Part shown: positions 658 to 57,979 of the stretch, piece after piece | How positions within the stretch are numbered: position 1 is the stretch's first letter | Layout of the letters: each line of letters starts with the position of its first letter | Source: Lentimicrobium sp. L6 | GTDB taxonomy: Bacteria; Bacteroidota; Bacteroidia; Bacteroidales; UBA12170 | DNA: 57,979 bases | Direction: 5' to 3' | NCBI RefSeq assembly: GCF_013166655.1 | Contig: NZ_JABKCA010000027.1 | Span: forward strand, 1 to 57,979 | Position numbers and translations under genes: made by a program | The notes under the pieces: generated by a model | Database searches by the model: none | What the model saw: the letters and a program-made list of their open reading frames with translations, nothing else | What the model was told of the DNA's origin: nothing

Positions 658-3600
658 TTAAATCCCATTACGAGATATCTTAATCAACTTCACTTCCACC
701 GAACCTCCTTCTGGGAGAAGGCTGATATAATCGTTATCTTGATTCACCCACTTCACTTGTTTACCAATGCTGACAAAATAGCTGTGGTAGCCATCTGAGT
801 TCTTTAGTGGAATGGAGTAACCTCCGCTTTGACTTCCACCTTTACCGAAATTCACAAATAGCTTCACGGCTTGTTCGGGGTCAGATAATTTCACTTCCAG
901 AAGGATATAATTCTCACTTCTGTCTTTAAAAGAAATAGGGTCAAAAGTAAATTTCTCTTCATGGTTTTGGGCGATGGTCATTTTTCCATCGAGAATATGG
1001 ACCATGGAATTTTTCTTAATGAGCTCAAAAATCTTATCAATCATTTCAGAAGGATATTTCTCGAATGGAAACACCGTCAAAGCCTTCTCAAAACTCAAAA
1101 TAGATTCCTGATAATACTTGGTTCCATAGAAGCGTTCTCCATCAGCAATATATCGGTCATATTCTTTCTGCTGTGCTAAGAGTTCTTTCTCTAGAATAGC
1201 ATTGATTTCTGCTAGCTTCTCTTGAGGATACAGCTCCTCTGTTTTTATTTCTGAAGCTTCCTGATAAGCTAATTTAGCAGTATCCCATTTCTTAGATCTA
1301 AAACTCTTATCACCATTATCTATAGCTTTCTGATAGGCCACATCTTTTTCTCTTTGGATTTTTGCTAATGCGGTTCTGGCCTCCTCTATTTTTTGTGGAG
1401 GATAGGTCTCATGAACATAAATGGCTTGAGCTTGTGTAAATAGGCTGATAGAGGTTTCGTAATCTTCAGCTACAAATGCTTGGTCTCCTTGCGCTACTAG
1501 ACTTTCAAAGCGAGCTTGTTGATCAGCCATTAACGCTAAAATCCCATTGATTTCCTCTATCTTCTGCTGTGGATATAATTCCTCTGGTAAAATCTCTAAT
1601 GCAGCCAGATATTTTGTTAAGGCCATATCGTAACCTTGTTCTTTAAAGGCAGCATCACCGGCAGCAATAGCTTTATCAAATTCCATTCTTTTGCGGGCAA
1701 TATCTTGTAGAATCTGGTCTATTTCCATGATTTTTTGTCGTGGATAAACTTCCGTTGATAAATGCTCTAAGGCTGACTGATAACTTTGTTTTGCAGCTTC
1801 ATGTTCAGAAGCAGCCAATTGGGCATCACCCTGAGTAACTGCAGCATCATAAGCGGCTCTAGTGGCGGCCATGGCATCTAAAATCGTTTGAATCTCGGTG
1901 ATTTTTTCAGCAGGATAAGTCTTAGCAGGTAATATTGCTAAAGCTTCTTGAAAATGGCCTAAAGATGCTTCAAATTGACGCTCTTTAAACTCACCGTCTG
2001 CAGTATTTATTAATACCTGGTATTGCTCATGCTTTGCTACTAATTCATCTATCTTCACTATCTGTTCTTGAGGGTAAGTTCTATCCGTAAAAATCAATGA
2101 AGCTTCTTGGTATTGTTCTTTGGATTTTGCAAAAGATTCTTGCTGCAATAAATCATCAGCTTTAGCAATTACTTTATCATATTCTGCGTTTTTCCTAGCT
2201 AGTTCCTCTAAAATATCTCTAATCTCGCTCATCTTTTGCTTAGGATATTCTTCCTCCACTTTAAGTATAGATGCAGCCTCATATTTAGTGATAGCCGTTT
2301 CATAATCTAATGCAGTAAACAATTGATCAGCTTCTAAAATAATGGCATCATATTGGGCTTGCAAATCAGCAATGGCTTGTAATTTTTCATTAATGATATT
2401 GATTTGCTCTTGAGGATAAACCTCCTCTGTTTTTATTACTAAAGCTTCTTGATATTTAGGAAGTGCTAAACTCCACTCCTCTTTCACAAATTGCTTGTCG
2501 GCTTCTTTGATTAAAGCATCATACTGCTTTTGCTGGGCAGCTAGTTCCAATAAAATCCCTTCTATCAGTTTCAATTGTGTTTGAGGATATGCTTCATTGG
2601 CTTTAATAACCAATGCTGCTTCATATTTATCGATAGATGCCGCATAGTCTTTTAACTCCAACAACTGGTCTGCCTCAGCTACTAAAGCATCATACTGTGC
2701 TTGCTGAGCAGCTAACTCACCTAATAGATTATTTAATTCGGAGATTCTTTCCTTTGGATAGGCCTCCTCCGTTTTGATTTGAGATGCAAGAGTATAATTT
2801 GTTAAAGCATCTTGCCAGCTATTGGATTGATAGAAAGCATCTGCATCGGCAATGGCTTTGGCATAGGCCGCTTCCATTTCGGCCAACTCTGTTAACTTTT
2901 TATCAATTTCTTGAATTTGAGTTTGAGGATAAACCTCATTGGCTTTTATTCCAAGTGCTTCTTGATATCCTTCTTTAGCCACTTGCCATTCTTGAATAGC
3001 AAATTTTTCATCGGCAGCAGCAATAGCAGCCTCATAAGCCGCTTGTTGTTCTGCTTGTGATTTCAGCAAGTTTTGAATGGCTAAAATCTGTTCCTTAGGA
3101 TAAGCCTCCTCTGTTTTTAATGCAGATGCTTCCTCATATTTAGTGATGGCAGCATTATAAGATTCTGCATCTCTATTTTGGTCAGCGGCAGCAATGGCTT
3201 CTGAATATAATCTATCATTTTCAGCTATTTGCAATAGGATGGCTTCTATTTCCGCAATCTTCTCTTTAGGATAAGCTTCCTCTGTTTTCATTTCAGAAGC
3301 TTGTTTATATTGCCCTAATGATATTTCATAGCTCTTCTCTGCTAAGGCTGCATCCGCCGATTGAATTAACTGAGCATACAGTGCATCTTGATCTGCCATT
3401 TCCTTGAGGAGGGCATCAATTTTAGCAATTTGTTCAGTCGGATAAGTCTCGTTGGACAAGATAGTGAGTGCCTCTTGATACTTGGCTCTAGAATCCACAT
3501 AAGTACTGGCTGCAAACAATTCATCAGCGCTAGCAATTAAGGCATCATATTGAGCCTTCTGAGCAGCTATCGCTTCCAGTTTTGCATCAATATCAGCAAT

Positions 3601-6600
3601 ACGAGTTTTGGGATATTCCTCCTCAGCTTTGATTTCTAAAGCATCCTCATAAGCGGTTCTTGCCATTTCCCATTCACTTTGGTCATAATAAGCATCAGCT
3701 TTTGTAATGGCAGCTTGATATGCCGCATTTTTATCCGCCATAGCTTGCAATAAACCATCAATCTCGGCAATACGCTGCTGAGGATGGCTTTCGTTGGCAA
3801 AAATCACTAAAGCTTCTTGGTATTTACCTTTAGACTCTGAATAAGTCTGGGTTCCAAATAAGGCATCAGCTTCAACAATTAGTGCATCATAAGCCGCTTG
3901 TTGTGCTGCTTGGTCTTTTATCTTCTGGTTGATTTCAGTAATTCTATCTTGTGGATATTGTTCTGCGGGTTTTAATCCCAAAGCAGTTTGATAAGAATCT
4001 AAAGCTGATGTCCACTCGGTAGCATCAAAGGAAGCATCACCATCGGCAATAGCTTTGGCATAAGCGGCTTCTTTATTGGCTAGAATTCCATCAATCTCGG
4101 CAATCTTTTCTTGAGGATAAGTTTCGCTAGGTAGAATGGTCAATGCTTCTTGGTATTTGGCTTTGGCATCTTCATAAGTTTGAGTTCCGAATAAAGCATC
4201 AGCTGCCGCTATGATGGCATCATATTCTGCTTGTTTGGCTTCTTGGTCTTTTATCTTTTGGTTGATTTCTGCAATTCTATCTTGGGGATATTGTTCCGCT
4301 GGTTTTAATCCCAAAGCCGTTTGATAAGAAGCTAGAGCTGATGTCCACTCGCTAGCATCAAATGAAGCATCACCATCGGAAATGGCTTTGGCATAAGCCG
4401 CTTCTTTGTTGGCTAAGATTCCGTCAATCTCTGCAATCTTTTCTTGAGGATAAGTTTCGCTAGGTAGAATGGTCAATGCTTCTTGGTATTTGGCTTTGGC
4501 ATCTTCATAAGTTTGAGTTCCGAATAAAGCATCAGCTGCCGCTATGATGGCATCATATTCTGCTTGTTTGGCTTCTTGGTCTTTTATCTTTTGGTTGATT
4601 TCTGCAATTCTATCTTGGGGATATTGTTCTGCTGGTTTTAATCCTAAAGCCGTTTGATAAGAAGCTAGAGCAGCGGTCCATTCTGTGGCTTCAAAGGAAG
4701 CATCACCATCTGCAATGGCTTTTGCATAAGCTGCTTCTTTATTGGCTAAGATTCCGTCAATCTCTGCAATCTTTTCCTGAGGATAAGTTTCGTTTGGAAG
4801 AATAGCTAAAGCCTCTTGGTATTTGGCTTTGGCCTCTTCATAAGTCTGAGTTCCAAAATGACCATCTGCTGCCACAATGATGGCATCATATTCTGCTTGT
4901 TTGGCTTCTTGGTCTTTTATCTTTTGGTTGATTTCTGCAATTCTATCTTTTGGATATTGTTCCGTTGGTTTCAATCCTGAAGCTGTTTGATAAGAAGTTA
5001 AGGCATGAGCCCAATCTCTGTTATCAAATTTAGAATCACCTTCAGCTATGGCAGCAGCATAGGATGCATCTTTATCTGCCATTCCTTGTAATAAAGCATT
5101 TATTTCTGCTATTTTAGTCTTAGGATATTCTTCACTTGGCTTTAATTCTGAAGCTTTTTGAAAATGGCCTAAGGCTAAAGACCAAGCACTTGCTGTAAAT
5201 TGTTCGTCACCAAATTTGATTTCTTCTTGGTAAGCTAATTCTAAATCGGCGAAATCTTTCATGATTCCCTCAATAATGGCCATTTGATCTTTAGGATAAG
5301 CCTCCTCTGTTTTCAGCTGAGAGGCTAATTTATAATTATCAAAAGAGGGTGCATATTCCTTAGCCTGAAATTCTACATCTGCCTGTGCGATTAGCTCATC
5401 ATATTTTTCGGCATCTGCAGCTAATTTGACCAATAAACCATTGATGATTTCTATTTGTGCAGGAGGATAGTTTTCTTTAGGCTTTAATTCACTAGCACTT
5501 GCATAAATTCCAAGTGCGGCTTGATATTCTAGAGCTTCAAATTTAGCATCGGCTTGAGCAATAAGGTCAGCGTAGTTACCATCCATAGCTCTTATTCTTC
5601 TTTGCTCTTCTATGGTATTGATGTCCTCAATTTTATATTTAGGATACATTTCTTCAGACTTAATTTGAGAAGCAATGAGGTATGCTGATTTGGCATCACT
5701 AAGCTTTTCTTGCTCGAATAACTTATCGGCATTGGCAATGGCATCCTCGTACTTCTTATCCAATTCCTTTTGAGCACCAAGTCTTCTTTCAATTTCACTG
5801 ATACGTGATTTTGGATAAACCTCCTCCGATTTTATCTCTAAGGTTTGCTGATAGGCTAATAGCGCAGGAGATAAACTGTCAACAGCATATAAATCATCAG
5901 CTATCTTCAAGGCAGCTAAATAGCTTGCATCCAGTTCTTTTTGCGCATTGATTAAAGCATCAATCTCATCAATTTTTTCTTGAGGATAGACTTCGTTTGG
6001 CTTCAGGTTTTTGGCTGCATAATAATCGTAAAGGGCATTCTCATAATCCTTGGCTTGGTACTTGGCATCCCCTGCCATGATTAAGGCTTGGTATTTATCT
6101 GCAGCTTCTAAAACAGACTGGATTTCAGCTAGTTTATCTTTTGGATATTGTTCATCTGCAATTAATAATGAAGCTTCGGTATAGGATTCAATGGCCTTTT
6201 CATAAGACTTCTGCTCAAAACTTCTATCGGCTTTGGCTATTATTTTATCGTATTCTTCTCTATTGGCTTGTTGGGCTCTAACCTCTTTACATTCTTCCTT
6301 TAACTCATTCACTCTATCTATCACCAATTGAGCCCTTTGCTCATCAATATAGAAATTGCCTTTGTTCTTATGATAAGTAATTTCAGTTAATGGCCTATCA
6401 AGAATAGAAAGGTCTACAGAACAATCGGGGAATAATTCCACCACTAAATCATATTCAAAGATAGTATTGTGATTTACATCGCGAGGCAGGGCAGTATTGA
6501 CATCAAATATCTTCTGCACATAATTGGATTTATAGAACTTAATTTGATAGTTGGAGTTTAAATTCAATTTGAATTTGTGTCTTCCATTTGTTCCAATTTC

Positions 6601-7794
6601 GGCAGTTTCTTTTACACTACCTCCTTCTATTAGCTGAATTCGAGCATCAAATAATCCATTGTCATTTTCATGAACAAAACAGGAAATTTCGATATATCCC
6701 GTTGCTAAAAGGATGTCAATTTCTAATAACTGATCTTTCGGGTATTGCTCATCTGGTTTCAATTCAACAGCCTTGGAATACCTAGAAAACGCAGATTGAT
6801 ATTTCTTATCTTTAAAAAGCTGATCACCATCAGCAATAGCTTTGGCATAGTCTGTTTCCAACTTATCAGCTTTGGCTTGTTCTTTATCTAATCCAGAATT
6901 AATCTTTGTCAACATGTTGGCGGCATAGGTTTTCTCAGGGAGAAGGGCAATAGCTTTTTGATACTCTGACTTAGCAGCGGCCAAATCCTTGTCCACATAT
7001 AATTTATCAGCAACAGCAGTAATTTGGTCATATTCTTTTTCTTTCTCAATGAAGACCTTCATTTTAGCAATTTGAGCTATAGCATATTCATCTCCAGGTT
7101 TTGTTTCCAATGCTAATTCATACTGGCTTAATGCTTCAGAAAATTTTTGATAATTGAGCTGTTGGTCAGCCTTGAGGATGGCTTGCTCGTATTTCTGTCT
7201 ATTGGAATCTTGGTTTTGGAGTATATTGGCAATCTTGATAATCTGATCATTGGGATATTTCTGAGCGGCATCAACATTAGCAGCATCGCGATAGAAACTA
7301 ATGGCCTGCTCGTATTCCTGTTTTACAAAATGCTCATCGGCGGTTTTTATAGCTTGTTCGTAAACCGAATTCTTCAAATTAGCCGCCTCTAATAATGTTT
7401 GAGACTCCTCTAATCTTGATTTCGGATGTGCTTCGTAGGCAATAAGCGCAAGAGCTTTTTCATAATTGACGATGGCCGTTTCATAGTCTTTTACATCAAA
7501 AGCTTCATCGGCAGTTTCTATATATTCATCATATTCACCTCTTACGGCCATTTCTGCTTTAAGGAGGTTGATGATTTCCTGAACTTTTTCATTAGGATAA
7601 GCCTCCTCCGGATTGAGTTTTGCAGCTAATTGGTAGGTAGCTTTAGCATTATAGTAATCCTTGTTTTGGTAGTATTCATCTGCCGATTTTATCACCGATG
7701 CATAATCCTTAACCTCTTGGGCCCAAATTGAACCAGTGAAAAGGATAAAAAAGGCCAATAGGCTGATGATGTTTTTTGTATTCTTACTATTCAT
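658..7794 (-). CDS. giant exported TPR-repeat protein (37 EYP-type units)
   Basis: This 2378-residue protein has a signal peptide (residues 1-25, ending SIWAQ). It then has about 37 units of 53-59 residues, each a TPR-like helical pair plus a linker helix. The unit pattern is Y-x3-I-x2-A/G-D-x2-F, then Y/W-x2-A-x3-Y-x2-A, then E-x-YP-x3-I-x-EI. Six units precede a beta-rich insert (about 365-515) that looks like a carboxypeptidase-regulatory or Ig-type fold. Thirty-one units follow it, and a beta-rich C-terminal domain of about 115 residues closes the protein. There is no T9SS tail and no C-terminal membrane helix. The repeats suggest a periplasmic or surface scaffold for protein-protein contacts; the partner is unknown. 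It lies 126 bp downstream of lolD on the same strand. Some units are nearly identical in DNA, showing recent internal duplication. I do not recognise a named family. Confidence 0.88.
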   Translation of the reverse strand: MNSKNTKNIISLLAFFILFTGSIWAQEVKDYASVIKSADEYYQNKDYYNAKATYQLAAKLNPEEAYPNEKVQEIINLLKAEMAVRGEYDEYIETADEAFDVKDYETAIVNYEKALALIAYEAHPKSRLEESQTLLEAANLKNSVYEQAIKTADEHFVKQEYEQAISFYRDAANVDAAQKYPNDQIIKIANILQNQDSNRQKYEQAILKADQQLNYQKFSEALSQYELALETKPGDEYAIAQIAKMKVFIEKEKEYDQITAVADKLYVDKDLAAAKSEYQKAIALLPEKTYAANMLTKINSGLDKEQAKADKLETDYAKAIADGDQLFKDKKYQSAFSRYSKAVELKPDEQYPKDQLLEIDILLATGYIEISCFVHENDNGLFDARIQLIEGGSVKETAEIGTNGRHKFKLNLNSNYQIKFYKSNYVQKIFDVNTALPRDVNHNTIFEYDLVVELFPDCSVDLSILDRPLTEITYHKNKGNFYIDEQRAQLVIDRVNELKEECKEVRAQQANREEYDKIIAKADRSFEQKSYEKAIESYTEASLLIADEQYPKDKLAEIQSVLEAADKYQALIMAGDAKYQAKDYENALYDYYAAKNLKPNEVYPQEKIDEIDALINAQKELDASYLAALKIADDLYAVDSLSPALLAYQQTLEIKSEEVYPKSRISEIERRLGAQKELDKKYEDAIANADKLFEQEKLSDAKSAYLIASQIKSEEMYPKYKIEDINTIEEQRRIRAMDGNYADLIAQADAKFEALEYQAALGIYASASELKPKENYPPAQIEIINGLLVKLAADAEKYDELIAQADVEFQAKEYAPSFDNYKLASQLKTEEAYPKDQMAIIEGIMKDFADLELAYQEEIKFGDEQFTASAWSLALGHFQKASELKPSEEYPKTKIAEINALLQGMADKDASYAAAIAEGDSKFDNRDWAHALTSYQTASGLKPTEQYPKDRIAEINQKIKDQEAKQAEYDAIIVAADGHFGTQTYEEAKAKYQEALAILPNETYPQEKIAEIDGILANKEAAYAKAIADGDASFEATEWTAALASYQTALGLKPAEQYPQDRIAEINQKIKDQEAKQAEYDAIIAAADALFGTQTYEDAKAKYQEALTILPSETYPQEKIAEIDGILANKEAAYAKAISDGDASFDASEWTSALASYQTALGLKPAEQYPQDRIAEINQKIKDQEAKQAEYDAIIAAADALFGTQTYEDAKAKYQEALTILPSETYPQEKIAEIDGILANKEAAYAKAIADGDASFDATEWTSALDSYQTALGLKPAEQYPQDRITEINQKIKDQAAQQAAYDALIVEADALFGTQTYSESKGKYQEALVIFANESHPQQRIAEIDGLLQAMADKNAAYQAAITKADAYYDQSEWEMARTAYEDALEIKAEEEYPKTRIADIDAKLEAIAAQKAQYDALIASADELFAASTYVDSRAKYQEALTILSNETYPTEQIAKIDALLKEMADQDALYAQLIQSADAALAEKSYEISLGQYKQASEMKTEEAYPKEKIAEIEAILLQIAENDRLYSEAIAAADQNRDAESYNAAITKYEEASALKTEEAYPKEQILAIQNLLKSQAEQQAAYEAAIAAADEKFAIQEWQVAKEGYQEALGIKANEVYPQTQIQEIDKKLTELAEMEAAYAKAIADADAFYQSNSWQDALTNYTLASQIKTEEAYPKERISELNNLLGELAAQQAQYDALVAEADQLLELKDYAASIDKYEAALVIKANEAYPQTQLKLIEGILLELAAQQKQYDALIKEADKQFVKEEWSLALPKYQEALVIKTEEVYPQEQINIINEKLQAIADLQAQYDAIILEADQLFTALDYETAITKYEAASILKVEEEYPKQKMSEIRDILEELARKNAEYDKVIAKADDLLQQESFAKSKEQYQEASLIFTDRTYPQEQIVKIDELVAKHEQYQVLINTADGEFKERQFEASLGHFQEALAILPAKTYPAEKITEIQTILDAMAATRAAYDAAVTQGDAQLAASEHEAAKQSYQSALEHLSTEVYPRQKIMEIDQILQDIARKRMEFDKAIAAGDAAFKEQGYDMALTKYLAALEILPEELYPQQKIEEINGILALMADQQARFESLVAQGDQAFVAEDYETSISLFTQAQAIYVHETYPPQKIEEARTALAKIQREKDVAYQKAIDNGDKSFRSKKWDTAKLAYQEASEIKTEELYPQEKLAEINAILEKELLAQQKEYDRYIADGERFYGTKYYQESILSFEKALTVFPFEKYPSEMIDKIFELIKKNSMVHILDGKMTIAQNHEEKFTFDPISFKDRSENYILLEVKLSDPEQAVKLFVNFGKGGSQSGGYSIPLKNSDGYHSYFVSIGKQVKWVNQDNDYISLLPEGGSVEVKLIKISRNGI
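3900..4950 (-). repeat. near-identical 333-bp tandem repeats inside the TPR gene
   Basis: Equivalent points recur at 4121, 4454 and 4787, giving an exact 333-bp (111-codon) period, and a more diverged copy sits one period earlier near 3788. Each period encodes two TPR-type units (AYAKAIADGD... and YDAIIAAADALFGTQTYEDA...). Long stretches are identical between copies, so the array is a likely site for copy-number change and assembly error. Confidence 0.85.
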
Positions 7795-33300: not shown

Positions 33301-35148
33301 CTAAAACCCAATAATCTTTTCCAGCTTCAGTAGCAATAATTCTCTATCCACAGGTTTTCTAATATAATCTACTGCACCCATTTGTAAACTCTTAAGTTCA
33401 AGAGAAGCATCTTGCAATCCTGTCAAGAATATTACAGGAACATCTATTTTTTTCTCCGTCATGTATTTTAATAACTGGAAGCCATCAAAATTAGGCATAT
33501 TAATATCAGACAATACCACATCTATGTTTCCTTGAGCCAATTCCATCAGAGCGTTTACCCCATCAGAAGCTACCGTCACCCGAATGTTTTTCGTTTCTAA
33601 AACAGCAGTTACTACTTTCTGATTTATCTTATCATCCTCCACCAATAAAATATGTGCCGATTGACTATCATAATCGACTCCATGTTCAGGAATCATTAAA
33701 TCCCAAATATCTTGAAGATAAACATAAGCGAAAGCAGAAGAAGTATCTGAAACACCATAAGGAATAATCAATTTATCATCGTTTACCATGGCTCCGCAAC
33801 TGTAAACAACATTGGGCACTCCACCTTCTCGCTCCACTGAATTTGCTTTTAATAATGGCTCCTTTAGACGAGCAATCACTTTTCGTGGGTTTTCGAGATC
33901 CAATAACACAGCACCAATTACATATTGACGCATCACTCCTACTCCATATGTTAATAACAACCATCCTTTTTCTGTTTCTATGGGCGAGCCAACATTTCCT
34001 ACCTGATTACTTTCCCATGCGAATTTAGGCTCGTGAAGTAAGTGTGACTCCTCCCATTTATTGATATCATCGGAGAAAAGGATATAATTATTAATACCAT
34101 CTAAGCGACTAATCATGACATAATCACCTTTTATCTTTCTAGGGAATAATGCCATTCCTTTCTGATGGGCACCGATTCCGTGCAAGGGCATCATGGTAAA
34201 ATGGTAGAAATCATAGGTTTCAATCATATGTGGCAAAACCTCTTCCCCATCATTGGCATTATAAGTGGCTATATAACTGACAACTCCAGCATTATTAGTG
34301 TATTTTACAAATCTAGCATCCTCTATACCTTGTGATTCCGAAGCCGTATTGGGAAACAAAACTCTTTCGGACAAAGTAGTATCTAATGAAAATGTGGTTT
34401 CATAGTTTATTTCTGCTAATGAAAAAAGAAAATCCAAAGCCTGCAAACGCTCGTCACTATCTCTAGATTCTAATTTAACATCATCAATAATTTGAGTCAG
34501 GTGATTATAATCAAACTCTTTGGGAAGAATAGCCTCTATATAATTTTCATGGTCTGAAAAAGCCTCAGATTTTTTTACGGAATCTAGGAAGTGTTTTTTC
34601 TCATAGGTTTTACTGCTAATTCTCTCTGGCAAAGCTACAACCCTTCCCATTTCCTCCAATTCTAAACTGCCATCTTTATTTAATATTCCTTCTCTAAATA
34701 TCAAATTGCTGATACCATCTTCACCAACGCCTCTTAGGCTAATGACAACTCTTTTCTGACCTCTAAGTAAGTCGGTTTGATCAGGAGCTTCCACCATACT
34801 AGGGTTACAAATAGATTTTGATTCAATAGACTGTTCTTTGGTGAAATAAGCTCCAATCAACAGCTGCTTGGATTCAGGTAAAGCATCATTAGAAATCCCC
34901 AGCTCCTCTATCAAAGGCAAAATGTGATTATAATTAGCTTTAAAAATATTTGAGATATTTATATGCCGATTGGAAAACAAGCGAAGTGTTTGCTGAAGTG
35001 TGATACTAGCTTCATTTTCATTCAAACCCAATACACGCTTGATTAGTATTTTTGCTCTCTCTTTTGATTTAGGAAATGAAAATTTAGTGATCACTCTTTT
35101 TGGATCTGGCTTAATTTTGGTTTCAAGGCGCTGTACATTTATACTCAT
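33301..35148 (-). CDS. GH130-type glycoside phosphorylase fused to a CheY-like receiver domain
   Basis: This 615-residue protein has three parts. Residues 1-120 are the helical N-terminal part of a GH130 subgroup (LLIGAYFTKE then NPSMV). Residues about 120-485 form the five-bladed propeller. They carry the GIEDARF motif near residue 273, the EDxR signature holding the catalytic Asp of characterised GH130 enzymes, and GNVGSP, TYGVG and PYGVSDT. Residues 495-615 are a complete receiver domain: acidic E504-D505-D506, phospho-acceptor Asp548 (VVLSD), Thr576 and Lys598 (IRKP). GH130 enzymes split beta-mannosides with phosphate; the receiver suggests phospho-control. No signal peptide is seen, so it acts in the cytosol. 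No histidine kinase is adjacent. A terminator lies downstream. The fusion is unusual in my knowledge. Confidence 0.85.
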   Translation of the reverse strand: MSINVQRLETKIKPDPKRVITKFSFPKSKERAKILIKRVLGLNENEASITLQQTLRLFSNRHINISNIFKANYNHILPLIEELGISNDALPESKQLLIGAYFTKEQSIESKSICNPSMVEAPDQTDLLRGQKRVVISLRGVGEDGISNLIFREGILNKDGSLELEEMGRVVALPERISSKTYEKKHFLDSVKKSEAFSDHENYIEAILPKEFDYNHLTQIIDDVKLESRDSDERLQALDFLFSLAEINYETTFSLDTTLSERVLFPNTASESQGIEDARFVKYTNNAGVVSYIATYNANDGEEVLPHMIETYDFYHFTMMPLHGIGAHQKGMALFPRKIKGDYVMISRLDGINNYILFSDDINKWEESHLLHEPKFAWESNQVGNVGSPIETEKGWLLLTYGVGVMRQYVIGAVLLDLENPRKVIARLKEPLLKANSVEREGGVPNVVYSCGAMVNDDKLIIPYGVSDTSSAFAYVYLQDIWDLMIPEHGVDYDSQSAHILLVEDDKINQKVVTAVLETKNIRVTVASDGVNALMELAQGNIDVVLSDINMPNFDGFQLLKYMTEKKIDVPVIFLTGLQDASLELKSLQMGAVDYIRKPVDRELLLLKLEKIIGF

Positions 35149-35404: not shown

Positions 35405-36013
35405 TTAATTATAAAATTTCATCCAAGTTTTATAATCATCGCGGCTAGTATCATAGATTCTGATGATGGCTGATGTCCAATAATCTTCAAATTTCCTGCC
35501 TTTTCCTTCTGCTCTTGTAGGCTCACTTATCAATACTTTACCCGTTCCAATATCAAAGAAAACTACCCAAATAGATGCATATTCATTAATAGCATTTAAA
35601 GATTCTACCATATAGACCAAACCTAAACCGGCTTTTTCTGAACTTGAATATTTCTCAATAAAACCTTCAATTTGGGACTTCTTGAAAATAAAATTTTCAG
35701 CCTGGATTATCTCATCAAATGGGATCATTCGGTTCAATTCATAAACTGCGGTATCATATTCCACCCTCTTTTTTTTGTATGGAGCGCCAATGGGAATATT
35801 TTTCTTTCCTTCAGAAAACATTTTATTCCATGTTGGATAATAATAATTCACCATCTCAGCGCCTCCCGGAAATTCTCCTATACCTACACATTTAGCATGA
35901 GTGAAATCTAATCCAAAAAAGGTGACAGCTTTATATTCAAAAACATCAGAAACTGATTGAGAATAGCTAAATAAACTTGATGCAAGTAATAATACGATGA
36001 GTAACTTTTTCAT
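35405..36013 (-). CDS. exported protein of unknown function, paralogue A
   Basis: This protein of about 202 residues starts at the ATG at 36013, giving a clean signal peptide (MKKLLIVLLLASSLFSYSQ). A longer frame upstream would place polar residues before it. The mature part has FFGLDFTHAK early, a central GLGLVYMVE and IWVVFFDIGTGKVL near the end. These three segments are shared with the next upstream gene, so the two are tandem paralogues. The function is unknown. Periplasmic or outer-membrane location is likely. The two genes are 59 bp apart and probably share a transcript. Confidence 0.7.
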   Translation of the reverse strand: MKKLLIVLLLASSLFSYSQSVSDVFEYKAVTFFGLDFTHAKCVGIGEFPGGAEMVNYYYPTWNKMFSEGKKNIPIGAPYKKKRVEYDTAVYELNRMIPFDEIIQAENFIFKKSQIEGFIEKYSSSEKAGLGLVYMVESLNAINEYASIWVVFFDIGTGKVLISEPTRAEGKGRKFEDYWTSAIIRIYDTSRDDYKTWMKFYN

Positions 36014-36072
36014 TAGAGTAATTTTCTGCAATTTAAGAAAATTTACAAAATCAAAATTGCTTAACAATAGTT

Positions 36073-36702
36073 TTAGTTTTCAGCCTGCTTTTCCCATTTC
36101 TCATAAAACTCTTGAGACTCTTTAATGATTTGTCGTATTCCACCAGCATAATAATTCCTGATGCTGAAACCTTTCATTCCTCCTCTAGCTCGTTTTACCA
36201 ATAGCACCTCTTGAGTATCAATATCGAAGAAGACTATTTGTATGCTTATCAGATTATTTCCATGGCTAACCTCATCTATAATATATACTAAACCAAGGCC
36301 ACTATGTTTCTCATCATTATAATTTTGGACAACCGATTGAATCTGCTCCTCACTCAAGCTTTCTACTTTGCCATTCATATAATGCTCATAAACATCAAAG
36401 GCTGCATTTAGATCATCTGCTCTATAAAAATTATACTCCACATTTTTCTTTTTATAGCTTTTTGCCACATCATAGCGCTTTCGTTCATCCATCATCAATT
36501 CATTTAATGCTGGCATATATTTATCTTGCATACTGGCTGGGCTAGTAAGTCCAGAACCACCAGTAAAACGAGCTTGAGTAAAATCTAAACCATAAAATAC
36601 CATGTCTTTGGATTTGAATACATCTACATCTTGCGCATGAAGGCTCCATCCCATGGTTAATGATAAGAATACTAGAATTAAATATTGTTTGGTTATTTTC
36701 AT
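36073..36702 (-). CDS. exported protein of unknown function, paralogue B
   Basis: This 209-residue protein has a signal peptide (1-23, SLHAQ) and the same landmarks as its neighbour: VFYGLDFTQAR, SGLGLVYIIDE and IQIVFFDIDTQEVL, plus a KKKNVEY segment where the neighbour has KKKRVEY. It is probably the first gene of a two-gene transcript. No domain I recognise is present. Confidence 0.7.
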   Translation of the reverse strand: MKITKQYLILVFLSLTMGWSLHAQDVDVFKSKDMVFYGLDFTQARFTGGSGLTSPASMQDKYMPALNELMMDERKRYDVAKSYKKKNVEYNFYRADDLNAAFDVYEHYMNGKVESLSEEQIQSVVQNYNDEKHSGLGLVYIIDEVSHGNNLISIQIVFFDIDTQEVLLVKRARGGMKGFSIRNYYAGGIRQIIKESQEFYEKWEKQAEN

Positions 36703-53012: not shown

Positions 53013-53657
53013 TCATCTACAAAGAAGCTCAGCAGCTACTTCAACCTTCTGCATATCCTCCATAACATCGGTGCAAAGGCAACCATAATAATATTGACCA
53101 AAATCTAAATCTTGCAGAAACCATCTCTGCCCATTTTGGGAAAATTTTTCATTGCTGGCATCAATTTCGATCTGGTGTAAATAGAATAAGTTAACGCCCA
53201 ATGCTTTAATAATACTTTCTTTACGTGTCCAATAGCAAAAGAATTTTTGGAGTGGTGACGTAGACTTATTTATGTTAACCCACTCTTTTGGTGTGAAAAA
53301 AGCTTCAAAATCAGAAAGCTTGATTTGCCTGTGCTGTTCAATATCTATACCTATTTGCCCTTGCTCTGCCAATACGCAAACCACCATATTACCCGAATGA
53401 GAAATATTAAAGGAGATATCCTCCAAATGTGGTTTGTCATTTTTCAGATAGGTGATATGATCCAATAAATCACCCCTTCCCATTTCCATTAAACCATACT
53501 TGAGGAGTAATCGCCCAATGACAAATTGATAGCCATCTGCTTCAAATTTATATCGAAGTGCACGCTGTTGAATAGCTTCAGGCATCCTCTCAATGAGCTC
53601 AGCTAAACTATATTTCTCCTGTATCAGCAAGGAGTTGGTATGGTAAATCATGTTCAT
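53013..53657 (-). CDS. 4'-phosphopantetheinyl transferase (Sfp/PfaE type)
   Basis: This 214-residue enzyme moves the phosphopantetheine arm from CoA to serine in acyl-carrier domains. It has the Sfp-type motifs: NISHSGN (about 84-90), IGIDIEQ (Mg-binding Asp and Glu) and FCYWTRKESIIKALG (W-x2-K-E-x3-K). It is divergent from the TetR-pfaA pair and is the obvious activator of PfaA. The short length fits single-domain transferases such as PfaE. The ATG at 53657 is used; an ATG two codons later is equally possible. Confidence 0.85.
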   Translation of the reverse strand: MNMIYHTNSLLIQEKYSLAELIERMPEAIQQRALRYKFEADGYQFVIGRLLLKYGLMEMGRGDLLDHITYLKNDKPHLEDISFNISHSGNMVVCVLAEQGQIGIDIEQHRQIKLSDFEAFFTPKEWVNINKSTSPLQKFFCYWTRKESIIKALGVNLFYLHQIEIDASNEKFSQNGQRWFLQDLDFGQYYYGCLCTDVMEDMQKVEVAAELLCR

Positions 53658-54013
53658 GAATCATCTAATAACTATCAATGAATAATCAATATCAACGAAA
53701 ACCATCAAGTATTGAATACTTGATGAGGCAATATTACGATAGAATTCTGGTTTTAGTAGTAATTATTAAGTATCTAATGAGCATATCAGTAAACTCACTC
53801 TCCGTATCCCACCCAAATATTTCACTCATCACACTCAGTCGTTAATTTAATTTAACACTACACAACTGCCGTATTTTCAGGCTATTGAAATTAATTATAC
53901 ACTATTTTATGTTAAAATAAAGAACCTTGGAAATAAAATCGGAATACTTTCGTTTCTTTGCGGTACTGCGAAGACGAAAATATTACCGTTGGTTTTAAAA
54001 CTATAATTTAAAC
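53658..54013. other. divergent intergenic region of the pfa locus
   Basis: It holds a perfect 23-bp palindrome (53703-53725) and an imperfect inverted repeat near 53949-53979 (TTCGT... and ...ACGAA), just before the TetR gene. A near-consensus TACTTTCG (53945-53952) may be part of the TetR promoter. No further coding sequence is seen. Confidence 0.55.
53703..53725. promoter_or_regulatory. 23-bp palindrome, candidate TetR operator
   Basis: CATCAAGTATT-G-AATACTTGATG is perfectly symmetric (11-bp arms around one G). It lies 46 bp upstream of the PPTase start and between divergent genes, so it is not a terminator. Its size and perfection fit the operators of TetR-type dimers. The adjacent TetR gene is the natural candidate. 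Confidence 0.6.
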
Positions 54014-54631
54014 ATGATTACACGAGAACTCATCATAGAAACAGCAACAAAATCATTCTTAGTGAATGGTGTAAAATCAGTTACCATTGACAAAATAGTT
54101 AAGGAATTACACACTTCCAAAAGAACCCTTTATGCTCACTTCAAGGATAAAGTGGAATTGCTTGAAGCTTGTTTGGAGAATTATAATCATAAAGTAAAAG
54201 CCGAAAATGAAGCCATTATAGAATCGGCTGATAATGTGATAGAGGCTATGGCCAAATTACATCATCAAATTGTGAGACGCTCCTATGAGGTAAATCCAAA
54301 CTTCTTTCAGGATGTACAAGCCTTTTACCCTAGCGTATTAAATAATTCATACAAAAGCACTGGAAAATACGCCCATAAACAGATGATTAAATTGGCAACA
54401 TGGGGTATAGAGGAAGGTATTTTCAGAAGTGATTTAGATATAGAGGTTGTAGGACAAACGGTATTGGTCATGCAGAAATTATTAAAAGACAAAGTGAAAT
54501 TCCCTATCTCAGAATTTAGTATCGAACGTCTCACATTTGGGACTTTAGTACCATACTTGAGAGGAAATTGCACACTAAAGGGAAGAGAAATATTAGAAAT
54601 TCAAGAGGAACTTTTTAAAGTTTCCATTTAA
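54014..54631 (+). CDS. TetR/AcrR-family transcriptional regulator
   Basis: This 205-residue protein has an N-terminal TetR helix-turn-helix: VTIDKIVKELHTSKRTLYAHFKDK-like at about residues 22-46. The C-terminal ligand domain (about 55-205) is all helical and not specific. It lies 11 bp upstream of pfaA on the same strand and so is probably co-transcribed. It could repress or activate the locus in response to fatty acids or another lipid signal. Confidence 0.88.
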   Translation: MITRELIIETATKSFLVNGVKSVTIDKIVKELHTSKRTLYAHFKDKVELLEACLENYNHKVKAENEAIIESADNVIEAMAKLHHQIVRRSYEVNPNFFQDVQAFYPSVLNNSYKSTGKYAHKQMIKLATWGIEEGIFRSDLDIEVVGQTVLVMQKLLKDKVKFPISEFSIERLTFGTLVPYLRGNCTLKGREILEIQEELFKVSI

Positions 54632-54642
54632 AAAATAAAGCT

Positions 54643-57600
54643 ATGAATATTAACAGCTCGCTTCAGAAAACACCAATTGCAGTAATAGGATTATCTACAA
54701 TTGTAGCAGACGCCCTAAATATTGAGGAATTTTGGACAAATATCATCCAAGGAAAAGACAGTATAACTGATGTACCCAAAAGTCGTTGGGACATAGATGA
54801 TTATTATGATGCAGACATGACTGCTCCTGATAAAACCTATTGTAAAAGAGGTGGTTTTATTCCTGACATTAATTTTAATCCCATGGAGTTTGGTTTACCA
54901 CCAAATATTCTTGAAGTAACGGATGCAAGTCAGTTATTAGGTTTGATAGCTGCACGTGATGCACTCAAAGATGCTGGTTATGGTAAAGATTCAGTGAAAT
55001 TCACAACTGCACTAAAAGCCAAAACTGGTGTTTTACTAGGTGTAGGTGGAGGCCAGAAATTAATTACACCATTAATTTCACGTTTACAATATCCTATCTG
55101 GGAAAAAGCTTTGCGTGAAAGCGGTATTGCCGAACAGGATATTCCACACATAGTTGACAAAATGAAAAAAGCCTATATCGGCTGGAATGAGAATTCATTT
55201 CCTGGCCTATTGGGTAACGTTATATCGGGTCGTATTACCAATCGTTTCGACCTAGGTGGTATTAACAGCGTTGTAGATGCTGCTTGTGCTGCTTCCTTGA
55301 GTGCCATAAAAATGTCCTTGAGTGAATTAGTAGAAGGACGTTGCGACATGATGCTGACTGGTGGTGTTGATACCGACAATTCACCATTTATGTATATGTC
55401 GTTTAGTAAAACGCCTGCCTTCTCAAAATCTGGAAATATCAGCCCATTTAGCGATAACGCGGATGGTATGCTGATTGGCGAAGGATTGGGAATGTTGGTA
55501 TTAAAAAGATTAGAGGATGCTGTGCGTGATGGTGACAGAATTTACGCGACCATTACAGGTGTTGGAACTTCTAGTGATGGCCGTTTCAAATCGGTTTATG
55601 CCCCTCGTCCTGCTGGACAAGCCATGGCTGTAGAACGTGCTTATGAAGATGCGGGTTATGCACCCTCAACTGTAGGTTTAATTGAAGCACATGGTACAGG
55701 TACTGCTGCAGGTGACCCTGTTGAATTTTCATCCATGCAAATGGTCTTTGGGAAAGACAACCCTCAAAAACAACATATTGCTTTGGGTTCCATCAAATCG
55801 CAAGTGGGCCATGCTAAAGCTGCAGCTGGTGCTGTGGGGATGGTGAAAGCGGTATTGGGTTTACACCATAAAGTGTTACCGCCAACAATTAATGTGGAGC
55901 AACCCAATTCTAAGTTTGACATTAGTAATTCGGCTATGTATATCAATACAGAAGCTCGTCCATGGTTAAGAAACGGACATCCGCGTCGTGCTGGTGTAAG
56001 TGCTTTCGGTTTTGGAGGCATCAATGTTCATATTGCATTAGAAGAATATGCTGGCACAAAGCCTAAGGATTATCGTATACATGAGCCCTATAAATCGGTC
56101 TTATTAAGCGCTCAAAATCCTAGTCAATTATTAGAGACTTGTAAAAGCACTTTAGCCAATTTAGAAGGAGAAGAAAGTAAATTGGCTTTCTTAAACCTAA
56201 CAAAGTCTAGTAAAAATAGCATCGCAGACAAATCCTTTGCTCGCATTGGATTTGTGGCCCAAGACATTGAAGAATGTATTAGTTTATTCCAAACGAGTAT
56301 ACAAATGCTTCAAACCAAACAAGAACAATGGAATCATCCTAAAGGTATTTACTACCGTCCGAATGGTATGGATGCCCAATCGAAAGATGTAGTGGCATTA
56401 TTTGCAGGACAAGGCTCACAATATGTGGGTATGGGTAAAGAATTAACCAATGCCTTCCCTGAGCTAAATGAAGCTTTTCAGCAGACCGACAAACTTTTTG
56501 AGCAAAACGGAGAAGCTGCTTTATCAAAAACTATCTTCCCTATTCCTGTATTCTCGAAAGAAGCAAAAGCAGCTCAACAAAAAACATTAACACAAACGAA
56601 ATTTGCTCAGCCTGCCATTGGTACCTTGAGCATGGGACAATATAAGATTTTACAAAATGCCGGATTTAAGCCTAGCTTTACTGCCGGACATAGTTTTGGT
56701 GAATTAACTGCACTTTGGGCAGGTGGTGTTTATGATGAAAATACCTTTTTAGCATTGGCTAAAACCAGGGGTGCTGTCATGTCGATTGAAAATCCCAATG
56801 CAGACAAAGGTTCAATGCTAGCTGTTGAAGCTTCGCAAGAACAGGTGCTACAAGCCATTGCCAATATGCCTGGTGTTAGCATTGCCAACGTGAATTCAAT
56901 TAGCCAGATTATTCTTGGCGGTAGCACACAAGCCATCCGCATTGCAGAACAACAATTAAAAAATCAGGGCTATGCTGTTATTCCATTACCGGTTTCAGCG
57001 GCCTTCCACACTGATTTTGTTAAACATGCACAAGAGCCTTTTGCTGGTTTTATTGCAGCACAGCAGTTTAACACACCGAAAATACCTATTTATTCAAATA
57101 CATCAGGAAATCAATTCCCAAATGATTCCAATGCAATAAAAGAAATTTTAAAGGGACAGATTCTAAAGCCTGTATTGTTTAAAAATCAAATTGAAAATAT
57201 TTATAATGCTGGTGGTCGTGTATTTGTAGAGTTCGGACCCAAAGGTGTATTGACCAAATTGGTTGGGAATATCTTAGAAGGGAAAGAACATACAGCCATT
57301 GCTATTAATCCAAATGCCAAAAAAGACAGTGATTTACAATTCCGTCAGGCTATTGTACAATTGCATGTTTTGGGATTACAATTATCAAATGTAGATCCCT
57401 ATTTAAAAGAAGCTGAAGCACCTGCTAAAGCAAGCAAAATGGATGTGATAATTAGTGGTGCTAATTATGTTTCTCCTGCTACGAAAAAAGCTTATTCCGA
57501 CGTAACGAATAACGGATTTAAAATTTCTGGCAATCAAACACAAGTTATTGAGAAGATTGTTGAAGTGGAAAAGGTCGTAGAAGTTGCAGCTCAAACCACA

Positions 57601-57979
57601 AACAATCCCTCAAATGAAAACAATGGCGTTTCCGAATTGCTACTTTCTACTTTAGAATCCTTTAAAACCAATCAGGCAAAGTCATTAGAGTTATTTGAGC
57701 GTTTTATCAATGATCAAAATACACAAAGTCAGCAGCTGATAGATATTATTGGACAGCAAGTAAATGCAAATTTGCCATTGACTCCTCAAGAGGCAGCTGC
57801 ACCAACAATTACCGCTCCTGTTATTGAAACAGTAGCTCCTATTCAAGCTGAAGTTCAAGCAGCATCAGAAGCAAACAAAACTACCGCTGATACTACACAA
57901 TTAGAAAAGATGTTGTTGGAAGTGGTGAGCGAAAAAACAGGTTATCCTGCAGAGATGCTAGAGATGAACATGGATATGG
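54643..57979 (+). CDS. pfaA: PfaA-type polyunsaturated fatty acid/polyketide synthase (5' part)
   Basis: The frame is open from the ATG at 54643 to the window end (over 1110 codons). Residues about 8-465 are a ketosynthase with YCKRGGF and FNPMEFGLPPNILE, as in bacterial PfaA, and the catalytic Cys215 (VVDAACAASL), His350 (EAHGTGT) and His390 (VGHAKAAAG). Residues about 585-890 are an acyltransferase (FAGQGSQYVGMGKEL, Ser684 in GHSFGE). A linker rich in Ala, Gln and Thr follows, and the first acyl-carrier domain begins at about residue 1088 (LEKMLLEVVSEKTGYPAEML). The remaining carrier and reductase domains should lie downstream. PfaA makes long-chain polyunsaturated or related lipids with PfaB-D. 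It is the second gene after tetR, with PPTase divergent. Confidence 0.9.
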   Translation, partial: MNINSSLQKTPIAVIGLSTIVADALNIEEFWTNIIQGKDSITDVPKSRWDIDDYYDADMTAPDKTYCKRGGFIPDINFNPMEFGLPPNILEVTDASQLLGLIAARDALKDAGYGKDSVKFTTALKAKTGVLLGVGGGQKLITPLISRLQYPIWEKALRESGIAEQDIPHIVDKMKKAYIGWNENSFPGLLGNVISGRITNRFDLGGINSVVDAACAASLSAIKMSLSELVEGRCDMMLTGGVDTDNSPFMYMSFSKTPAFSKSGNISPFSDNADGMLIGEGLGMLVLKRLEDAVRDGDRIYATITGVGTSSDGRFKSVYAPRPAGQAMAVERAYEDAGYAPSTVGLIEAHGTGTAAGDPVEFSSMQMVFGKDNPQKQHIALGSIKSQVGHAKAAAGAVGMVKAVLGLHHKVLPPTINVEQPNSKFDISNSAMYINTEARPWLRNGHPRRAGVSAFGFGGINVHIALEEYAGTKPKDYRIHEPYKSVLLSAQNPSQLLETCKSTLANLEGEESKLAFLNLTKSSKNSIADKSFARIGFVAQDIEECISLFQTSIQMLQTKQEQWNHPKGIYYRPNGMDAQSKDVVALFAGQGSQYVGMGKELTNAFPELNEAFQQTDKLFEQNGEAALSKTIFPIPVFSKEAKAAQQKTLTQTKFAQPAIGTLSMGQYKILQNAGFKPSFTAGHSFGELTALWAGGVYDENTFLALAKTRGAVMSIENPNADKGSMLAVEASQEQVLQAIANMPGVSIANVNSISQIILGGSTQAIRIAEQQLKNQGYAVIPLPVSAAFHTDFVKHAQEPFAGFIAAQQFNTPKIPIYSNTSGNQFPNDSNAIKEILKGQILKPVLFKNQIENIYNAGGRVFVEFGPKGVLTKLVGNILEGKEHTAIAINPNAKKDSDLQFRQAIVQLHVLGLQLSNVDPYLKEAEAPAKASKMDVIISGANYVSPATKKAYSDVTNNGFKISGNQTQVIEKIVEVEKVVEVAAQTTNNPSNENNGVSELLLSTLESFKTNQAKSLELFERFINDQNTQSQQLIDIIGQQVNANLPLTPQEAAAPTITAPVIETVAPIQAEVQAASEANKTTADTTQLEKMLLEVVSEKTGYPAEMLEMNMDM

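Follow-up and report, generated by a model that had tools for sequence, protein, structure and literature searches.

The window analysed here, the whole 57,979-nucleotide stretch of contig NZ_JABKCA010000027.1 of Lentimicrobium sp. L6, carries on its minus strand, at 33301-35148, a reading frame of 615 amino acids that runs from an ATG to a stop codon and encodes a GH130 domain followed by a C-terminal phospho-receiver domain. The Pfam model Glyco_hydro_130 matches residues 260-485 (115.5 bits, E = 3e-33, cut-off 26), which places the protein in GH130 (CAZy; Pfam PF04041) by profile, and Response_reg matches residues 500-609 (93.2 bits, E = 1.5e-26, cut-off 30.2). The preliminary description of this DNA had reported a full-length GH130 domain joined to a receiver at these positions without stating the strand; the translated frame confirms the fusion, and the two-domain reading is borne out by Pfam, by an AlphaFold model and by Foldseek. 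The NCBIfam equivalogs BtaManbiosPhlase (142.8 bits against a cut-off of 550) and BManbPhaseBMBP (137.5 against 450) score far below their cut-offs, and the window protein is therefore not one of these named GH130 enzymes.

The AlphaFold model, built on a 47-row alignment, is confident overall (mean pLDDT 87.9, pTM 0.73) and comprises a helix-rich N-terminal part, then a propeller that starts at about residue 103 and contains a helical insert (184-243), and finally a receiver (498-613); its weak 10-residue blocks are 441-450 within the propeller (mean pLDDT 55) and 491-500 in the linker (mean 63). In a Foldseek comparison with the PDB, the top matches were GH130 enzymes, headed by the 1,2-beta-oligomannan phosphorylase Teth514_1788 (E = 1.9e-22), with target TM-scores of up to 0.76, so that the five-bladed propeller of GH130 is assigned by fold match and not by counting blades; receiver-domain matches start at rank 36 of the best 50 matches listed. 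We accordingly delimit, all on the minus strand, a helix-rich N-terminal region (residues 1-95, 34864-35148), the GH130 propeller with its insert (residues 96-486, 33691-34863), a linker (residues 487-497, 33658-33690) and the receiver (residues 498-613, 33310-33657). The N-terminal region is common to the unfused GH130 relatives of about 490 amino acids, most of which begin to match at query residues 1-6. These relatives end approximately where the linker lies. Single-domain members had been described earlier as ending near residue 490, which agrees with the 50 unfused relatives fetched, 38 of which are 488-493 amino acids long (range 476-511). Within the propeller, Asp277 (34318-34320, minus strand) is Asp in 119 of 119 aligned rows, as expected of the invariant catalytic Asp of GH130; we predict that it is the catalytic acid, on the basis of homology to E141/D142 of BT3780 as given in PMC4599007, the pairing with E276-D277 being our own reading of the motif.

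The GH130-receiver fusion is genuine. The search for relatives covered 60 genomes (the window's own, 10 others of the genus and 49 of the order) and found the full-length fusion in the own genome and in six other genomes of the genus, those six being 53-88% identical to the window protein; two of them, G003 (88% identical) and G002 (60%), also share the flanking genes of the window. A second fusion (644 amino acids, 48% identity over the alignment) is encoded on contig 18 of the window's own genome. The preliminary description had named two ways in which its claim could fail, namely an assembly error joining two genes at about residue 490 and the absence of any GH130-receiver pair from related genomes. 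The pair is in fact present in orthologues in the genus and beyond, in relatives across Bacteroidota. The window genome is a draft of 195 contigs, which might be taken to favour an assembly or gene-calling artefact that fused a GH130 gene to a CheY-like gene, but the same junction recurs in independent genomes, including those of named cultured strains, and the divergence of the two halves is correlated; the orthologues with the identical junction rule this explanation out, and we leave it practically no probability.

Among the best 80 of 546 relatives, 63 loci contain a fused reading frame of at least 600 amino acids, 15 are unfused and two are fusions cut by contig ends; because these 80 are the best-scoring relatives, 63/80 is not a frequency. 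The two sets overlap, since L041, L042, L043, L044 and L046 are contigs of G003, G002, G004, G010 and G001, respectively. The cultured strains that bear the fusion include Chitinophaga dinghuensis DSM 29821, Maribacter algarum RZ26 and Flavivirga jejuensis KACC 14158. A sample of the class (396 genomes, at least 90% complete) is less biased than 63/80 and gave 33 genomes with a match, only two of them fused, and in plasmids, where 39 records gave a match, no match reached 80% coverage of the query. The fusion is thus a minority form of a wider family, most members of which have no receiver. Other long GH130 reading frames were sought in 296 genomes as possible independent fusions; of four stretches with long open frames picked by hand from the matches listed, none resembled a receiver when the frame ends were judged by eye, in a check that is not exhaustive.

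On the sequence trees, a single joining event in Bacteroidota is likely but not proven. In the tree of GH130 domains with 108 rows, a single branch separates the fused rows from the rest (support 88), and a mixture-model tree of 49 hand-chosen rows requires one change for the fused rows (support 89); a quick tree of 119 rows, which includes 11 minus-strand loci that the 108-row tree leaves out, requires two. The support for the fused branch does not reach the 95 mark in any tree. One fused row (L092) is a long and unsure branch, and L102, a fusion cut by a contig end, is treated as fused in the trees and is placed among the 51 others in the 119-row residue counts. Across 2278 pairs of fused rows, which are not independent because the rows are related, distances between receivers and distances between GH130 domains show a correlation of 0.81; this is consistent with inheritance of both halves as one unit. 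A fusion labelled Verrucomicrobia (L077) nests among Bacteroidota sequences in the 108-row tree and is probably either a misbinned contig or a transfer.

The receiver residues named in the preliminary description (E504/D505/D506, D548, T576 and K598) proved correct, and the window copy thereby has the characteristic residue set of a response regulator. D505 is present in 68 of 68 fused rows and K598 in 67 of 68, and position 576 is Thr in 27 and Ser in 41, with nothing else occurring. Asp548 (33505-33507, minus strand), the predicted phosphorylation site, is Asp in all 68. When the window gene is compared with its orthologue in G003, dN/dS (LWL85) is 0.07 for the whole protein, 0.07 for the GH130 part and 0.04 for the receiver, values that indicate purifying selection and that were obtained with synonymous sites near saturation. 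Receivers usually diverge faster than the GH130 half, with a median ratio of 1.42 over 2270 pairs of fused rows, eight pairs with a GH130 distance of 0.05 or less having been dropped.

The gene most often found beside the fusion encodes a GT4-type glycosyltransferase of about 740 amino acids, which is near 51 of the 63 fused loci and, in 45 of those 51, lies downstream, tail to tail, within 300 bp; of the 12 loci with no GT4 gene near, three have less than 600 bp of downstream sequence. A representative long GT4 protein matches Pfam Glycos_transf_1 and, more weakly at its C-terminus, the GH88, GH127 and C5-epimerase models, and we read this C-terminal region as a putative (alpha/alpha)6-type part. 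Of 51 other loci tested (36 of which offer a flank of just about 1.5 kb, and one of which, L121, is fused and GT4-less), 30 have a GT4 gene near, 19 best matching the long type and 11 a shorter type, and an annotated plasmid of Devosia carries a ManA-GT4-GH130 operon. Since GT4 genes are also near unfused relatives and in plasmid operons, we infer that the GT4-GH130 pairing is older than the receiver. A GT4-GH130-GH130-GT4 cluster also lies on an Ilyobacter plasmid typed as conjugative (L162:1994-7720), from which it follows that a mannoside module can ride a mobile element. ManA, the mannose-6-phosphate isomerase, adjoins three of the 63 fused loci (L043, L044 and L046), all of the window's genus, one of them examined with Pfam; the gene is also adjacent to the fusion in G005.

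Six of the seven genomes of the genus that carry the fusion have a GT4 gene. Some gene contents count against our main reading: no GT4 match was found in G003 (86% complete), the bearer of the closest copy, and G007 has a GT4 gene, about 0.1 kb from a contig end, with no match to the fusion. At the position of K330 of the window protein, four beta-1,2-type enzymes likewise have Lys, and the beta-1,4-type TM1225 has Arg; this Lys is described in PMC4599007 as a mark of beta-1,2-type GH130 enzymes. Together with the GT4 and ManA neighbours, K330 suggests a putative beta-1,2-mannoside module, and the neighbours point to a putative cytosolic module for the making and turnover of beta-mannosides. 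The role in mannoside metabolism put forward in the preliminary description is therefore in agreement with the GT4 genes and, at some loci of the genus, with the isomerase.

In the window copy, the enzyme half is altered. The window protein and its G003 orthologue, alone among the 119 rows, share H401Y, Y443G, Y299N, H145G and F114C at near-invariant positions, position 443 falling within the weakly modelled block 441-450. The residue at 401 (33946-33948, minus strand), Tyr in the window copy, is His in 117 of 119 rows and in the five solved GH130 sequences aligned (Teth514_1788, Teth514_1789, Lin0857, TM1225 and Uhgb_MS), so that the window copy does not have the His of the mannoside phosphorylases. 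We take the equivalent His in Uhgb_MP to contact phosphate. According to PMC4599007, three basic residues contact phosphate in GH130 phosphorylases, and acidic replacements go with hydrolysis. The window copy keeps D277, D468, K330, K338, R348, N115 and R139, of which K338 and R348 may be among the phosphate contacts. The term carbohydrate phosphorylase, which the preliminary description had applied to this protein, is thus overstated, as the His is lost and other near-invariant positions are changed, and phosphorylase activity of the window copy appears doubtful.

The pattern of divergence is also unusual here. The window and G003 rows sit on a long stem (0.69 in the 108-row tree), and the three lowest receiver/GH130 ratios of the 2270 pairs (0.25-0.65) are the pairs among the window, L041 and L042, in which, contrary to the general pattern, the receiver diverges more slowly than the enzyme half. 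No GT4 gene lies beside the fusion in the window or in G003. The G002 copy (L042) has the same gene surroundings and has kept His401, and its contig also holds a GT4 gene at a distance of about 27 kb. The paralogue on contig 18 of the window genome is canonical, has an intact 740-amino-acid GT4 gene adjacent to it, and groups in the trees with fusions of other Bacteroidota; it may be an acquired copy. Given this paralogue, it would fit that the native window copy was freed to change function, but G003 shares the changes, yet no second fusion and no GT4 gene were found in that genome (86% complete), which speaks against the idea.

The preliminary description had also asked whether histidine kinases are linked to the fusion; they are the exception and not the rule, with a few suggestive loci. 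Kinase-type reading frames number 10 in the 336 kb of flank within 3 kb of fused genes and 11 in the 628 kb farther out, raw counts by which any enrichment is weak at best; a dedicated neighbouring histidine kinase as a general rule was rejected on these numbers. No kinase was seen by eye in the reading frames listed for the window. The best lead for a cognate phosphorelay is L078, where a candidate Hpt gene (L078:9452-9994; 28.3 bits with the cut-off at 24.6, the match spanning half of the profile) abuts the fusion, ending at the base before its called start. The Hpt/fusion pair has genes for kinase-receiver proteins on either side, on the other strand. Same-strand kinases are located 104 bp (L101) and 268 bp (L067) upstream of the fusion, and the L107 fusion lies between genes for a LytTR regulator and a His_kinase-family protein. 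We conclude that most members of the fusion family are orphans, which would be fed by unlinked kinases.

Among known systems, the GH130 beta-1,2-mannoside phosphorylases Teth514_1788, Teth514_1789 and Lin0857 are the best matches in both sequence and structure, and they share the propeller fold and the beta-1,2-type Lys with the window protein. Unlike it, they are chains of 303-363 residues that have no receiver and no room for the long N-terminal region or the insert, and they possess the His that the window copy has lost. The beta-1,2-mannosidases BT3780 and BACOVA_03624, the fold of which is likewise among the Foldseek matches (5a7v and 3qc2), offer a precedent in which loss of basic phosphate-contact residues accompanies a change of reaction; as described in PMC4599007, they have glutamates as candidate base, as against Tyr401 in the window. 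The unfused GH130 proteins of about 490 amino acids (Bacteroidota, Devosia, Ilyobacter and Aminicenantes) are homologous to residues 1-486, with 38-51% identity in the long matches, and often have a GT4 gene near, like the fusion, but have no receiver.

The usual targets of two-component systems are transcription, second messengers or motility. CheB is a response regulator with an enzyme-type output, and receivers are also joined to enzyme-type outputs in PleD and in PorX, the latter a precedent from the same phylum, with its structure among the receiver matches of the window protein. In contrast to PorX and PleD, the window protein carries its receiver at the C-terminus and has a carbohydrate-active enzyme as output; it does not belong to the PorX-type class, its output being GH130 with no PglZ or alkaline-phosphatase-type Pfam match listed. 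We know of no receiver in the GT108 enzymes of Leishmania. As outlined in PMC8950772, these are propellers that make and degrade the beta-1,2-mannan reserve mannogen; the likeness to the window fusion is one of functional analogy, as GT108 is a eukaryotic and different family. In a limited open-access literature search, we found no described GH130-receiver protein: in the text matched in PMC5320581 the GH130 and receiver-domain terms occur in unrelated gene lists, the matches listed from the output-domain literature did not name COG2152 (DUF377 occurs in the matched part of PMC5342196), and those on mannan, GT4, storage and phosphate contacts named no receiver fusion. The GH130-receiver protein is a new domain architecture composed of two known kinds of domain, and it is apparently uncharacterised.

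We favour, with a probability of roughly 0.55, the reading that the protein is a response regulator of two-component signalling, the output of which is a cytosolic GH130 beta-mannoside-active enzyme under receiver control, with the window copy as a diverged member. Weighing against it are the kinase counts near the fusion, the receiver-free majority of relatives, and the loss from the window copy of both the His and a GT4 neighbour. In the fusion family, a beta-1,2-mannoside phosphorylase or synthase would change its activity or its oligomeric state when the receiver Asp is phosphorylated; with the GT4 enzyme it would make a mannose-containing oligo- or polysaccharide and recycle it, and the signal would thereby directly set how much flows between glycan and mannose 1-phosphate. 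For the family as a whole, such phospho-control of a phosphorylase is plausible; the window copy itself most likely acts on another mannoside, hydrolyses instead of phosphorolysing, or binds sugar without turnover, and would have retained receiver control. A conserved receiver on a glycan-phosphorylase-type enzyme would amount to direct post-translational control of carbohydrate flux, and the recurrent GT4-GH130 pairing suggests that many environmental bacteria have a glycan that contains mannose.

Two other accounts give the domains different roles. The GH130 half of the window copy might be a pseudo-enzyme that has lost turnover and acts for the receiver as a scaffold or sugar sensor. Phosphotransfer would then be modulated by mannoside binding, instead of the enzyme by phosphorylation; the five changes confined to the window and G003, the ratios of 0.25-0.65 against a median of 1.42, and the long stem leading to this pair all argue for it, but the seven retained residues from D277 to R139 and the purifying selection on the GH130 half (dN/dS 0.07) do not, and Tyr in place of His could equally mean changed chemistry. 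We consider this possible but unlikely. Quite improbable, in our estimation, is a receiver that works as an anchoring or dimerisation module through constitutive contact, for example with the GT4 enzyme, phosphorylation being irrelevant. The mostly orphan state of the fusion, with few linked kinases, and its strong GT4 association would suit such a role, but D505, D548 and K598 are kept in 67-68 of 68 rows with only Thr or Ser at 576, residues that a pure scaffold would not need to conserve, and an Hpt gene abuts the L078 fusion while kinases lie directly upstream in L101 and L067.

Returning to the favoured receiver-controlled enzyme, a more specific and speculative version, which we hold to be rather unlikely as a whole, would have a phosphorelay of Bacteroidota directly switch the enzyme by which an intracellular beta-1,2-mannoside glycan is both built and mobilised, a glycan that would be the bacterial counterpart of Leishmania mannogen. 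The GT4 enzyme, with ManA where it is linked, would supply and start the glycan, the receiver-GH130 protein would elongate or phosphorolyse it depending on the phosphorylation state of the receiver, and in the window lineage this protein would later have become a mannoside sensor linked to the receiver, or an enzyme with altered chemistry.

Several other features of the window were recorded. At 35405-36702 there are two tandem proteins of about 210 amino acids, alike and apparently secreted as judged by eye, with no Pfam match at E 0.01, and similar pairs adjoin the fusion in G003 and G002. At the end of the window (53013-57978), phosphopantetheinyl-transferase-like, TetR-like and large ketosynthase/acyltransferase-type genes were recognised by eye and together resemble a polyunsaturated fatty acid synthase locus. 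Near the opposite end, at 658-7794, lies a gene for a protein of 2378 amino acids, which by eye consists mostly of similar repeats.
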